Source: a virus
Direction: 5' to 3' (one strand)
IMG/VR virus record: IMGVR_UViG_3300033571_009718
Span: 1 to 49,399 of that record
Length of the DNA: 49,399 bases
In this document: positions 3,042-8,197 of the stretch, piece after piece
Position numbering within the stretch: the first letter of the stretch is position 1
Layout: each line of letters begins with the position of its first letter
The notes under the pieces: model-generated
The model's input: the letters and a program-made list of their open reading frames with translations, nothing else
Told to the model about the DNA's origin: nothing
Databases searched by the model: none
Program-made: the position numbers and the translations under genes

Positions 3042-3096
3042 TAATTTGTAAATTTGAAAATAAGTACTTGACGTCGGTCAAGTAGTTCTATATAGT
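3042..3096 (+). promoter_or_regulatory. Early promoter/operator copy 1
   Basis: TTGACG (3068-3073) and TATAGT (3091-3096) are spaced by 17 bases and preceded by an AT-rich, UP-like stretch with TTTGAAAATAA. The inverted repeat TACTTGAC-GTCG-GTCAAGTA (3065-3084) covers the -35 box, as expected for an operator. The same arrangement recurs at 3949, 16316 and 47601. Confidence 0.8.
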
Positions 3097-3919: not shown

Positions 3920-3977
3920 AAAATAATTCATTATTTGAAAATAACTACTTGACGACCGTCAAGTACTTTGATATATT
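3920..3977 (+). promoter_or_regulatory. Early promoter/operator copy 2
   Basis: TTGACG (3949-3954), 17-base spacer, TATATT (3972-3977). The operator TACTTGACG-AC-CGTCAAGTA (3946-3965) is a perfect 9-bp inverted repeat. The upstream stretch is AT-rich and includes TTATTTGAAAATAA, shared with copies 1 and 4. Confidence 0.82.
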
Positions 3978-4985: not shown

Positions 4986-5270
4986 ATGGACTGGAACAAG
5001 CTTATTCTCGACCACGTCACCGTGCCGAAGCCGCCCGTCACCGAAGTCGGGTGGCGGGTACGACGGACAGACACCACCACACGTTTTGAGGTCACCGTCG
5101 ATGATGGCGACACCTGGACGCAGACGCCCTCGTGCGATCGCCCCACGGCCGGCGACATCGTCCGCGCAGGGTACGCCATCTTCGCGCAGTATCCTGGGGC
5201 GCGGGTCGTGGAGTACGAGGAGATCAACGGGGTCTGGATCCCACGGATTGAGGAAGAGGAGGCCGAGTAA
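4986..5270 (+). CDS. Early acidic protein, function unknown (94 aa)
   Basis: TAGGAGGAACT precedes the ATG. The middle reads VGWRVRRTDTTTRFEVTVDDG, a likely β-hairpin region, and the C-terminus is EEEEAE. The acidic tail and small size are typical of early phage proteins that bind host factors, but nothing here shows the target. The stop overlaps the next start (TAATG). Confidence 0.7.
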   Translation: MDWNKLILDHVTVPKPPVTEVGWRVRRTDTTTRFEVTVDDGDTWTQTPSCDRPTAGDIVRAGYAIFAQYPGARVVEYEEINGVWIPRIEEEEAE

Positions 5271-5566
5271 TGCGTTGCCCATCCTGCGCTTTCCGTGACA
5301 GTGCCATCTACGATTCGCGGCCGATCCGTGATGCGATTGACGGCGTGTGGCGGAGGCGCAGATGCCTGGGCTGCGAGTACCGCTGGACGACCTACGAGCG
5401 CAACACGGCCGAGATCCACGACGACGTGACGCTCGACCAGGCCGTGAACTGCCTGCGCCAGCTGCTGGACGCCGTCGAGGACGGCTTCGACGTGGACGAC
5501 CTGAACGCTCACCCGGCGATCCAGCGCGCACGATGGTCTGCGATGAAGATCCTCAGGCGCGCTTGA
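5270..5566 (+). CDS. NrdR-like zinc-ribbon protein without ATP-cone (98 aa)
   Basis: The N-terminal half is a near copy of the NrdR zinc ribbon: CPSC at residues 3-6, a DSRP turn, RRRRCLGCEYRWTTYER around residues 28-44. NrdR represses ribonucleotide reductase genes and is about 150 residues long with a C-terminal ATP-cone. Here the ATP-cone is replaced by about 50 acidic helical residues. It could be a phage transcription regulator, or interfere with host NrdR and so raise dNTP supply, which would fit the thymidylate genes downstream. The fold call is firm, the role inferred. Confidence 0.75.
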   Translation: MRCPSCAFRDSAIYDSRPIRDAIDGVWRRRRCLGCEYRWTTYERNTAEIHDDVTLDQAVNCLRQLLDAVEDGFDVDDLNAHPAIQRARWSAMKILRRA

Positions 5567-5591
5567 CCGGCGACAAATAGCAGAATAGAAT
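5563..5591 (+). promoter_or_regulatory. Leaderless promoter of the HTH gene
   Basis: TTGACC (5563-5568), 17-base spacer, TAGAAT (5586-5591). The ATG of the next gene is at 5598, where transcription is expected to begin, and no Shine-Dalgarno lies between. The 6-base distance from -10 box to ATG equals that at csf1. Confidence 0.65.
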
Positions 5592-5597
5592 CAAGCC

Positions 5598-5858
5598 ATG
5601 GAACCGAACATCGAACAAATGATCAACGAAATTGAGCCGGACCGGATGTACGGCACCAGCAGGGCAGGGCAGATCCTGCGCTGTAGTCGGCAGAACGTCG
5701 CGCTGCAGTGTATGCACGACCGGCTCATCAGCACCAAGCTCGACAACGGGCAATATCTCATCAAGGGCTCTGACCTGATCGCATTCCTGCGCGTCAGAGC
5801 CCCGCGGAACACCAGCAAACGGCAGGCGATGACCGCGCTGACTGCCGGCGCGTCCTAA
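5598..5858 (+). CDS. Excisionase/MerR-like helix-turn-helix protein (86 aa)
   Basis: After a short acidic N-terminus the sequence MYGTSRAGQILRCSRQNVALQC, then DRLISTKLDNGQYLI, GSDLIAFL, is the HTH_17/Xis-type winged helix layout (SRAG..L..S.Q.V...). Such proteins act as excisionases or small repressors. No integrase is present in the window, so a regulator of the early promoters is more likely than excision. It has its own leaderless promoter, as expected for a gene expressed first. It is a candidate, not a proven match, for the protein that binds the palindromic operators. Confidence 0.72.
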   Translation: MEPNIEQMINEIEPDRMYGTSRAGQILRCSRQNVALQCMHDRLISTKLDNGQYLIKGSDLIAFLRVRAPRNTSKRQAMTALTAGAS

Positions 5859-5879
5859 CGGGCGCTCGATGCTGGGATC

Positions 5880-6262
5880 CTGGCGTAGCGCAACATACGC
5901 CAGTACGGGGAACGGGCGGCGCCCGCACCGTTCCCCTCTTCCCACAAGATTTTGAGTTATGGCGGGATGTTCTTTTCACGGTAGGGTGCCAGTCTAGGCA
6001 TTGTTCGGGCAAGCGCTCGCGACAACGGGGCGTAGACTGGTGCTGAGAGAGTCAATCGAACAAAAACGTACTGGGGTGTCGGAGGCTCTCACAAACCGAG
6101 CAGCAACTCGGCGCGGCTATAGGAGTGTAGTCGCGATCAAATGCTAGGCAGTGATCCTGCCGCCCGCCGCCAGTTCGAGAGGCGCCACTCGTTGGGCTAC
6201 GAGCCCTGATCAAACGCAATTTGAGTCGAAGCAAGCCCTTTGGGCAGGTTGATACCTGCCCA
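5880..6262 (+). ncRNA. Candidate structured RNA of ~380 nt
   Basis: Perfect or near-perfect stems follow one another: CTGGCGTA/TACGCCAG (5880-5903), GGGGAACGG/CCGTTCCCC with inner GCGG/CCGC (5907-5936), an 11-bp stem GTGCCAGTCTA/TAGACTGGTGC (5986-6043), CCGAG/CTCGG (6096-6111), CGCGGCTA/TAGTCGCG (6112-6135), GGCAG/CTGCC (6147-6161), CGCC/GGCG (6168-6184), CTCGT/ACGAG (6188-6203), and the terminator stem at 6241-6262. No clear promoter of its own was found; read-through from the promoter at 5563 could make it. It matches no RNA class I know. It could instead be a long regulatory 5' region of the gene at 6285. Confidence 0.5.
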
Positions 6263-6269
6263 TTTTTTT
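6241..6269 (+). terminator. Intrinsic terminator
   Basis: TGGGCAGGT-TGAT-ACCTGCCCA (9-bp stem) followed by seven T. The next ATG (6285) with GGAGG lies 16 bases on, so it may also act as an attenuator for that gene. Confidence 0.85.
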
Positions 6270-6284
6270 GACATGGAGGAACCT

Positions 6285-6737
6285 ATGCTGACGATACTTC
6301 TTGCTACCATCTTCTCACTCACGCCTATCTGCATCGACAATCCCGAGACGCTGATCAAAGAGCGCGCGCCCCGGCCGGTGGTGGTGGGCGTGCTGAACGG
6401 CAGCAGCGTGCAGCGCGTCGAGGCGTTCACCTATCTGCAACAAACGAAACGGCTCACGGGTGAGGCCATCCGATGGGAGCGCGCATCGATCGCCGTGCAA
6501 GTGGCGATCGCTCGGCATCCGTTCAAAGAACCGGGTGACTTGGTGGACTACCTCACCGGCGCGGCGGCGTTCGTCGACACGCCTATCTTGCGCTTGCAGG
6601 TTGTCCCGCGGATCACCCTGGCCGAGACGATCACGCGCTACCTTCTGGCCAAAAGTCCGGACGACCGGCGATTGTACGGTGAGCTGCTCTATGCCGTGTC
6701 TGAGAACCGGGCAAACTCGTGCTCGTTCTGGCGGTAA
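6285..6737 (+). CDS. Early protein with hydrophobic N-terminus, unknown (150 aa)
   Basis: ATG 6285 has ATGGAGGAACCT before it. The first 17 residues (MLTILLATIFSLTPICI) are hydrophobic and could be a membrane anchor or export signal, though no positive charge precedes them. The rest is soluble and helix-rich, with PRPVVVGVLNGSSVQRVEAFTYLQ. No family is recognised. It sits directly behind a terminator or attenuator. Confidence 0.65.
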   Translation: MLTILLATIFSLTPICIDNPETLIKERAPRPVVVGVLNGSSVQRVEAFTYLQQTKRLTGEAIRWERASIAVQVAIARHPFKEPGDLVDYLTGAAAFVDTPILRLQVVPRITLAETITRYLLAKSPDDRRLYGELLYAVSENRANSCSFWR

Positions 6738-6804: not shown

Positions 6805-6845
6805 GCGGGCCGTTGGTTGACAAATTGACGGCCCGCCAGTATAGT
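6805..6845 (+). promoter_or_regulatory. Strong promoter of the methyltransferase operon
   Basis: TTGACA (6817-6822), 17-base spacer, TATAGT (6840-6845). The inverted repeat GCGGGCCGT (6805-6813)/ACGGCCCGC (6828-6836) brackets the -35 box and could be an operator. Directly upstream are the tandem repeats at 6772-6804. Confidence 0.82.
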
Positions 6846-6850
6846 AGATC

Positions 6851-6885
6851 TGCGGTCGGGAGTGACGCCCCGCGAGACAGCCGCA
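6851..6885 (+). promoter_or_regulatory. 5' leader hairpin, divergent copy
   Basis: TGCGG (6851-6855) pairs with CCGCA (6881-6885). Inside, CGGG (6857-6860) pairs with CCCG around AGTGACGC, which resembles the AATGACG loop of the other leaders. It lies at the predicted transcription start. Confidence 0.45.
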
Positions 6886-6916
6886 AACGAAAGGGAACAC
6901 AACTAGGATTCGTGAG

Positions 6917-7005
6917 AGCCTTTTGCGAAGGCGGGTCAGGTCTGTAGGCCGTCAACCTACATTCCCTTTCTACCTGCCCGTTCTTCGCAAAGGGCTTTTG
7001 CTTTT
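6917..7005 (+). promoter_or_regulatory. Long leader hairpin, probable attenuator
   Basis: A 14-bp stem (6917-6930 with 6983-6996, one G-U) continues into a second stem (6932-6941 with 6972-6980) and holds an inner hairpin GTAGG/CCTAC (6944-6960). A T-rich tract CTTTTGCTTTT follows, and then directly the GGAGG of the methyltransferase gene. This looks like an intrinsic terminator inside the leader, that is, an attenuator, or a structured element controlling translation. Confidence 0.7.
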
Positions 7006-7015
7006 GGAGGTACGG

Positions 7016-8197
7016 ATGGAACCAAAGATCGATCCCGAGTTCAAAGCCCTGCTCGCGCCGTTGTCGGCTGAGCAGTATGCCGGGCTTGAAGAGGACATCC
7101 TGGACCGAGGATGCCTGGACACCATCAAGCTCTGGAATGACACCATCATCGATGGTCACAATCGCTTCTCGATCTGTATGCGCCACGGCGTGATATTCCA
7201 GACCGAAGAGCTTGACTTCGATTCCCGCGAGGATGTCATCGAGTGGATGATCCGCAACCAGATCAACCGGCGCAACCAAACACCAGAGCAGATCAGCTAC
7301 TTTCGCGGCAAGCTCTACGAGCAGAAGAAGAAGCAAGGACAGCGAACTGATTTAACTTCTGGGCAAAATGTCCAGAAGTTAAGCGCTCAAGCCATCGCCG
7401 AAGATTATGGCGTGGATGAGAAGACGATCCGCCGTGATGCTGACTTCGCCAAGGCGATTGACACCATTGGCAAGCAGGTTGGCGAGGATGTGAAGCATCA
7501 GATCTTGTCAGGCGAACTGCCAGTCACGAAGAAGGATGTCGTCAAGCTCGCGCAGATGCCCGAGGAGAAGCGCAAGGCAATCACCGAGAAGATTGCTACC
7601 GGCGCAACGATGGCCGACGCGATCCGCGAAGAAAAGCGCGCCGAGGTGATCGCGCGCCTGGAAGATGTCGAAGCACGCGAAGCCAAAGAACTTGCCGGAC
7701 AGTATGACGTGATCGTTATCGATCCGCCTTGGCCAATGGAAAAGATCGAGCGCGATGTCAGGCCCAACCAGACCGAGTTCGACTACCCAACAATGAGCGA
7801 GGAAGAGCTTGGCGACATGATCCTTCCCGCCGCTGATGATTGTCATCTCTGGTTGTGGACAACGCATCGATTCCTACCTATGGCCTTTCGCCTTCTCGAT
7901 GCGTGGGAATTCAAGTACCTATGCACGTTCGTCTGGCACAAGCCGGGCGGCTTCCAGCCGATCGGCCTTCCACAGTACAACTGCGAGTTCGCGTTATATG
8001 CCCGTAGAGGCGCGCCGAAGTTCATAGATACCAAGGCCCTGCCTGTCTGCTTTGAAGCGCCTAGAGGGGCACACAGCGAGAAACCAGAGGCATTCTACGA
8101 GGTGGTCAGACGGGTAACGGCCGGGCGGCGGATCGACATCTTCAACCGACGCTCGATCGAAGGCTTTGAGTCCTGGGGGAAGGAGGCAGGCGAATGA
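7016..8197 (+). CDS. ParB-domain/MT-A70 adenine methyltransferase
   Basis: The start is ATG 7016 behind TTTTGGAGGTACGG; 393 residues. The N-terminal ParB/Srx-type domain contains IIDGHNRF (residues 44-51), the counterpart of the ParB GERR box. A helical HTH segment (AEDYGVDEKTIRRDADF) follows near 118-134. The C-terminal MT-A70 methyltransferase has the catalytic DPPW at 236-239 and a conserved WLWTTHRF further on. It is expected to methylate adenine N6 in DNA, either to protect the phage from host restriction or to mark its own genome. It heads an operon with the putative nuclease-fold protein at 8194 and the replication genes. ParB-methylase fusions are common in phages. Confidence 0.9.
   Translation: MEPKIDPEFKALLAPLSAEQYAGLEEDILDRGCLDTIKLWNDTIIDGHNRFSICMRHGVIFQTEELDFDSREDVIEWMIRNQINRRNQTPEQISYFRGKLYEQKKKQGQRTDLTSGQNVQKLSAQAIAEDYGVDEKTIRRDADFAKAIDTIGKQVGEDVKHQILSGELPVTKKDVVKLAQMPEEKRKAITEKIATGATMADAIREEKRAEVIARLEDVEAREAKELAGQYDVIVIDPPWPMEKIERDVRPNQTEFDYPTMSEEELGDMILPAADDCHLWLWTTHRFLPMAFRLLDAWEFKYLCTFVWHKPGGFQPIGLPQYNCEFALYARRGAPKFIDTKALPVCFEAPRGAHSEKPEAFYEVVRRVTAGRRIDIFNRRSIEGFESWGKEAGE

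Follow-up and report, generated by a model that had tools for sequence, protein, structure and literature searches.

The window, that is, the whole stretch of 49,399 nt of the virus record IMGVR_UViG_3300033571_009718, carries on its plus strand a unit headed by a sigma70-type promoter (5563-5591; TTGACC at 5563-5568, 17 nt, TAGAAT at 5586-5591). The first gene is a small HTH_17-like gene of 86 aa (5598-5858), whose ATG lies 6 nt after the -10 box, making the transcript leaderless or nearly so. A structured non-coding stretch, here called RNA1 (5850-6269), separates the HTH gene from the one that follows (6285-6737; 150 aa, no family). It ends with an intrinsic terminator (6241-6269, GGGCAGGT-TGAT-ACCTGCCC-A-TTTTTTT), 5 nt before the Shine-Dalgarno sequence of that gene. 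The gene at 6285-6737 is predicted to be reachable only via terminator read-through or an internal promoter, and because its Shine-Dalgarno sequence directly follows the T-run, read-through would be the evident route of expression. Further downstream, a second conserved leader RNA (RNA2, 6817-7003), always the neighbor of RNA1, lies upstream of the replication operon. Immediately upstream of the HTH gene, 5270-5566 encodes a protein with an NrdR-like zinc-ribbon N-terminal domain (PF22811). At 7016-8197 there is a phage protein with a C-terminal MT-A70 methyltransferase domain, which is 53-60% identical in many viral contigs where no RNA1 was found. Elsewhere in the window, two intergenic 43-nt repeats (3052-3094 and 3933-3975, 86% identical) contain the palindrome CTTGACGTCGGTCAAG and look operator- or promoter-like.

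Structure and coding potential of RNA1

Ten stem-loops were counted in RNA1. The 5' domain (module B, 5850-5945) contains a UAAC-loop hairpin (5850-5865) in CCUAACGG overlapping the HTH stop codon, a GGGAUCC motif and two further hairpins (5880-5903 and 5907-5936). Module A (5960-6169) is closed by the helix P1 (5960-5966/6163-6169), which encloses a boxA-like single strand beside it (AUGUUCUUUU, 5967-5976, with UUCUUU at 5970-5975), a variable insert (5985-6135) of four hairpins (5985-6044, with 12 bp, 6047-6090, 6096-6111 and 6112-6135) and the boxB-like hairpin P2 (6147-6161; (G)GCAG-UGAUC-CUGC(C), pentaloop NGAUC). On the 3' side, a hairpin seen in the window sequence (6194-6206) is followed by the terminator stem (6241-6262) and exactly seven T (6263-6269). 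The initial annotation, made from the sequence alone, had described a chain of about nine hairpins and a seven-T terminator at 5880-6262; the chain is real, but it truly starts about 30 nt upstream of 5880.

Folding of 5855-6272 reaches a minimum free energy of -184.8 kcal/mol (z = -4.57 relative to 100 dinucleotide-shuffled sequences), and the 3' part alone (5945-6272) has a z of -2.99. The assertion that hairpin density is far above expectation has to be qualified: 5901-6300 ranks 15th of 980 when the 400-nt windows of the contig are compared by GC-corrected folding energy. Since many 400-nt stretches of coding sequence in this GC-rich phage show comparable folding after the correction, density by itself is no proof of an RNA; the existence of RNA1 is decided by comparison with relatives, and its folding energy alone is unremarkable.

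The initial annotation also held that no coding frame explains the stretch and that it fits no tRNA, tmRNA or known RNA class, and both views are upheld. No conservation was found to back either of the opposite-strand mechanical ORFs (5794-6012 and 6052-6234), and the conserved signal is compensatory base pairing. The Rfam search that it had proposed gave no match at the gathering threshold and, down to E = 10, just two chance matches, both outside the stretch. The tRNA/tmRNA search of the region found none, and RNA1 did not reach the gathering threshold of the GOLLD, ROOL, tmRNA or tRNA covariance models.

Recurrence of RNA1 and covariation of its core in related phages

Using the RNA1 region as a query, blastn found no match in phages and plasmids or in the first relatives, because RNA1 is not conserved in sequence. 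Proteins of the flanking genes, looked up directly, gave no result either, and loci carrying the MT-A70 gene gave no RNA1 match. Capsid-related contigs were the way to L120, L127 and L131, three phages with an RNA2 that aligned by blastn. An RNA2 motif scan, a profile of the conserved protein p14361 and a second RNA2 pattern then yielded L150, L162, L165, L153, L158, L163, L220/L223 and L229. No cultured relatives of these phages were found. Because p14361 has no relative in the genome collection, and capsid relatives occur only in two low-coverage MAG contigs (44-46%), no host is claimed.

Upstream of RNA2, the first three relatives have the same arrangement as the window, namely HTH gene, non-coding stretch, terminator or equivalent, RNA2 and replication gene. 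Overall, at least seven lineages of related phages carry a structured non-coding stretch in this position; the initial annotation had named missing conservation as grounds for refuting its idea. The shared order is a sigma70 promoter, an HTH gene almost without leader, RNA1, usually a terminator, RNA2 and the replication operon. In the eight relatives scored, TTGACA is followed after 17-18 nt by a TATAAT-like box located 6-9 nt before the HTH start codon. The match of the HTH protein to PF12728 has an E-value of 0.0036 in the window and 1e-7 in relatives. L153 is closest to the window (HTH protein 35% identical; the gene after the RNA, at the same place, 62% identical).

In most members the HTH stop codon coincides with the start of RNA1 or shortly precedes it (P1 of L120 opens at the stop codon itself), and the simplest view is therefore that RNA1 forms the 3' part of the HTH mRNA; it is fused to the HTH gene, and no separate promoter for it is evident. 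The first gene of L229 encodes a different protein, with its own terminator ahead of RNA1. Equivalents of the terminator at 6241-6269 are present in L120, L127, L150, L153, L158, L162 and L165 and absent from L163. In several relatives, as in the window, the Shine-Dalgarno sequence of the next gene lies within a few bases of the terminator.

RNA1 is 290-580 nt long among members, with further modules, and its sequence is almost unconserved outside module A. The 5' domain with the CCUAACGG and GGGAUCC motifs is common to most members and missing in L153; CCTAACGG..ATCC occurs at the corresponding place in L120, L127, L131 and L150, and likewise in L163 and L223. Additionally, tRNA-like elements occur within RNA1 (L120 and L220) or directly after it (L220/L223 and L229). 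Their folds are cloverleaves in which the anticodon arm is altered, and ARAGORN called none of those in the relatives. The element of L229, beside RNA2, passes the Rfam tRNA threshold and is the only one scoring. No T-arm match was found in the window. Such cloverleaves inside or beside RNA1 were observed in L230 (2415-2481 and 2600-2683), on the minus strand of L229 (715-796) and in RNA1 of L120, some with a hairpin with a 14-18 nt loop in place of the anticodon arm.

Module A, first noticed by eye and then located with a descriptor, has a constant order, consisting of P1, [A/T]UGNUCUUU, the insert, a 4-bp hairpin with an NGAUC loop, usually two nucleotides (often GA) and P1'. The insert ranges from 35 to 171 nt and is unrelated between copies, and G-N-TCTTT beside P1 is invariant in all aligned copies. 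The P2 stem covaries (GCGG, CCAG, GGGG, GTAG and GCAG) around a conserved GATC loop; GAUC is lacking in L229. Module A is tandemly duplicated in L131 and L163, and L127 probably also has two copies, the second deviating. By descriptor, no second copy was detected on either strand of the window.

Covariation, which the initial annotation had suggested looking for in related phages, was found for module A. It was tallied for 12 copies and then for 10 chosen as independent, with the inserts removed from the alignment and with about 98% pairing in both tallies. Among the 10 independent copies, in a register picked by looking for pairing and with the window itself having contributed to recognition of the motif, 98.3% of pair cells are base-paired, and changes on both sides are seen in 11 of the 12 pairs. 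The covariation score was 0.813, about four times the shuffled mean (0.199, sd 0.048), and none of 500 shuffles scored as high. When the partner was slid by 1-3 columns, pairing fell to 32-46%. Against these caveats, the stems are 7-12 bp long at nearly fixed offsets and the descriptor is rare in shuffles (0.005 matches per shuffled window by chance; none in 20000 shuffled versions of the region). Furthermore, of the 47 IMG/VR stretches in which the P2 pattern matched exactly, only known family members had a P1 of at least 8 bp beside UCUUU. A covariance model (R1), built without the insert, played no part in the searches.

The hairpins drawn by eye in the initial annotation exist, but one pairing, which the free MFE fold also contains, does not recur. 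In it, CCTGCC from the 3' side of the conserved hairpin pairs with GGTAGG near 5981-5986, a helix missing in relatives. The conserved form is about 4 kcal/mol dearer than the free MFE (-90.1 vs. -94.3) because the latter uses this window-specific helix. A pseudoknot of UCUUU with purine-rich tracts was considered and rejected, since such pairing is expected by chance.

With its conserved position, a core that covaries in relatives and no Rfam family, the possible new structured RNA of the initial annotation is strongly supported as a new family unlisted in Rfam. What recurs in at least seven phage lineages is a conserved, covarying module A, placed after the HTH gene and ahead of the replication operon. 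A tie to Csf proteins, which had also been raised, is not supported. The type IV CRISPR effector genes csf3, csf2 and csf1 are present in the phage contig (155-3002, minus strand, PADLOC), but tblastn found no csf match in the relatives except a 40-aa csf1-like piece in L153 (2145-2264). Because relatives without detectable csf keep RNA1, a role as Csf guide or partner is unlikely.

RNA2 has its own sigma70-type promoter (6817-6845, TTGACA-17-TATAGT). Among 10 phages its mean column identity is 68%. The hairpin loop GUGACG can pair with a second loop, CCGUCAA, and pseudoknot arms covary (e.g., GGGAAACTG/CAGTTTCCC vs. GATAAGCGC/GCGCTTATC). At its 3' end a terminator lies just ahead of a gene, the same layout as for RNA1. 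No match to Rfam was obtained, and RNA2 is possibly a new attenuator or riboswitch-like element. Antisense pairing between RNA1 and RNA2, as in the P4/C4-like immunity RNA, was rejected since cognate pairs were no better than non-cognate ones. A truncated second RNA2 5' domain with its own promoter was observed on the minus strand of L229 (about 820-890), upstream of the tRNA-like element.

Comparison with antitermination signals and other phage RNAs

In lambda the order is cro-nutR-tR1-O, and boxA and boxB of nut, the site of antitermination by N and NusA/B/E/G, lie near each other. In rrn leaders boxB precedes boxA and boxC follows. RNA1 resembles the lambda nut site in its boxA-like strand followed by a short pentaloop hairpin, and in being preceded by a small regulator gene and followed by the first terminator ahead of an O-like replication initiation gene, which is close to RNA1. 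The order early promoter-HTH-RNA1-(terminator)-RNA2-replication gene is of the nut type. The boxB-like feature has a covarying stem of 4-5 bp and an NGAUC loop and lies 3' of boxA, in a sequence unlike lambda boxB. Unlike the lambda site, RNA1 matches only the core of boxA, its site is part of a 290-580 nt RNA, and no second site was found. The two boxes are not a few nucleotides but 35-171 nt apart, joined by the covarying P1, and because this spacing defines a nut site we did not classify RNA1 as one.

The key element boxA binds NusB-S10 (PMC10250234; PMC5725501), and its gamma-proteobacterial consensus is GYTCTTTAANA (PMC5725501). The core of boxA is UGNUCUUU. GTTCTTT of the window fits the first seven letters of this consensus, which may not be that of the host. 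GYTCTTT is present in the window and most lineages and GNTCTTT in all, and the AANA tail is lacking in most copies. Similarly, the rrn boxA shares the core G-N-TCTTT with RNA1, but most phage copies do not carry its (G)A-A-A tail, the first copy of L131 (TCTTTGACA) being closest. Upstream of 16S genes in distant bacteria we found GNTCTTTG; in the two groups sampled, though not in every genome, it took the forms GTTCTTTGAAAA, CGTCTTTGAAAA, GCTCTTTGACA and GATCTTTGATT. These sequences share the N-TCTTT core and vary at N as freely as the phage copies do.

By analogy with these systems, RNA1 may work like a nut site, and our leading interpretation, to which we give a little short of an even chance, is a cis-acting, nut-like antitermination signal. 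The first early phage transcript (promoter, HTH gene, RNA1) would have RNA1 as its structured 3' portion. P1 would set the boxA-like strand, as a NusB-S10 site, beside the boxB-like GAUC-pentaloop hairpin, and host Nus factors, perhaps plus a phage protein, would assemble there on RNA polymerase. The modified polymerase could then pass the terminator at 6241-6269 and that of the RNA2 leader, turning on the replication genes. We infer Nus factor binding, antitermination and its target from the likeness to known sites. Doubt arises chiefly because the boxA tail is missing, the boxes lie far and variably apart, the RNA is large and family scans identified no N-like protein. The extra modules and tRNA-like inserts likewise exceed the needs of a nut site, and the terminator before RNA1 and the loop without GAUC in L229, together with the absence of a terminator from L163, also count against the nut-like reading.

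The main rival, which we regard as rather unlikely, is a stable trans-acting RNA processed from the HTH transcript and acting as RNA or RNP particle, of the sort of GOLLD and ROOL, which are large ornate non-coding phage RNAs with tRNAs near or inside. Like these, RNA1 is large, multi-domain and phage-specific, it is modular with one or two copies of module A, and its tRNA-like elements in L120, L220/L223 and L229 include one that scores as an Rfam tRNA. It differs from GOLLD and ROOL in sequence and structure, however, with no match to families of this type. The near absence of sequence conservation except in module A, the fusion to the HTH gene with no evident own promoter and the read-through-dependent gene behind RNA1 also speak against a trans-acting RNA. 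A wider reading could be entertained, although we lean against it, in which RNA1 represents a hitherto undescribed class of large modular phage RNA with a P1-closed boxA/pentaloop core, hairpin domains and captured tRNA-like elements. Such an RNA might, alone or with Nus factors, reprogram RNA polymerase, or form a trans particle, and so start expression of the replication genes.

The terminator directly ahead of the next Shine-Dalgarno sequence, a layout repeated by RNA2, would also suit a self-sufficient put-type antitermination RNA, or an attenuator or riboswitch-like gate of the terminator at 6241, working without Nus recognition of boxA. RNA1 is a structured RNA at the position of PR-cro-putR in HK022, where putR lies about 270 nt downstream of the PR start (PMC9378689), and put acts on termination. 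Still, put RNA is about 70 nt long with two stem-loops (PMC9378689), whereas RNA1 is larger and differently built. No antiterminator helix competing with the terminator was noticed and L163 has no terminator, so that we consider such a gate improbable. The start of RNA1 at or near the HTH stop codon, where P1 of L120 opens, would fit a 3'-UTR element that governs how stable the leaderless HTH mRNA is or how it is translated, or that takes part in feedback by binding the HTH protein; the different first gene of L229, with its own terminator before RNA1, makes this a quite improbable role. The hairpins are least likely of all to act as DNA, such as a replication origin or recombination site. The O-like gene nearby would accord with that, but 5700-6500 has no iterons, direct repeats or AT-rich tract, and the covarying single-strand structure, terminator and promoter layout indicate RNA.

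With RNA1, a strongly covarying family is added to the structured RNAs of phages among which no cultured relative turned up, and the guess made at its function can be put to the test. If the nut-like reading is true, Nus-dependent antitermination signals would reach phages far from lambda, and a helix instead of close spacing would join boxA and boxB. If it is wrong, RNA1 would be a new ornate phage RNA. On either reading, two consecutive leader RNAs, RNA1 and RNA2, would gate a replication operon.
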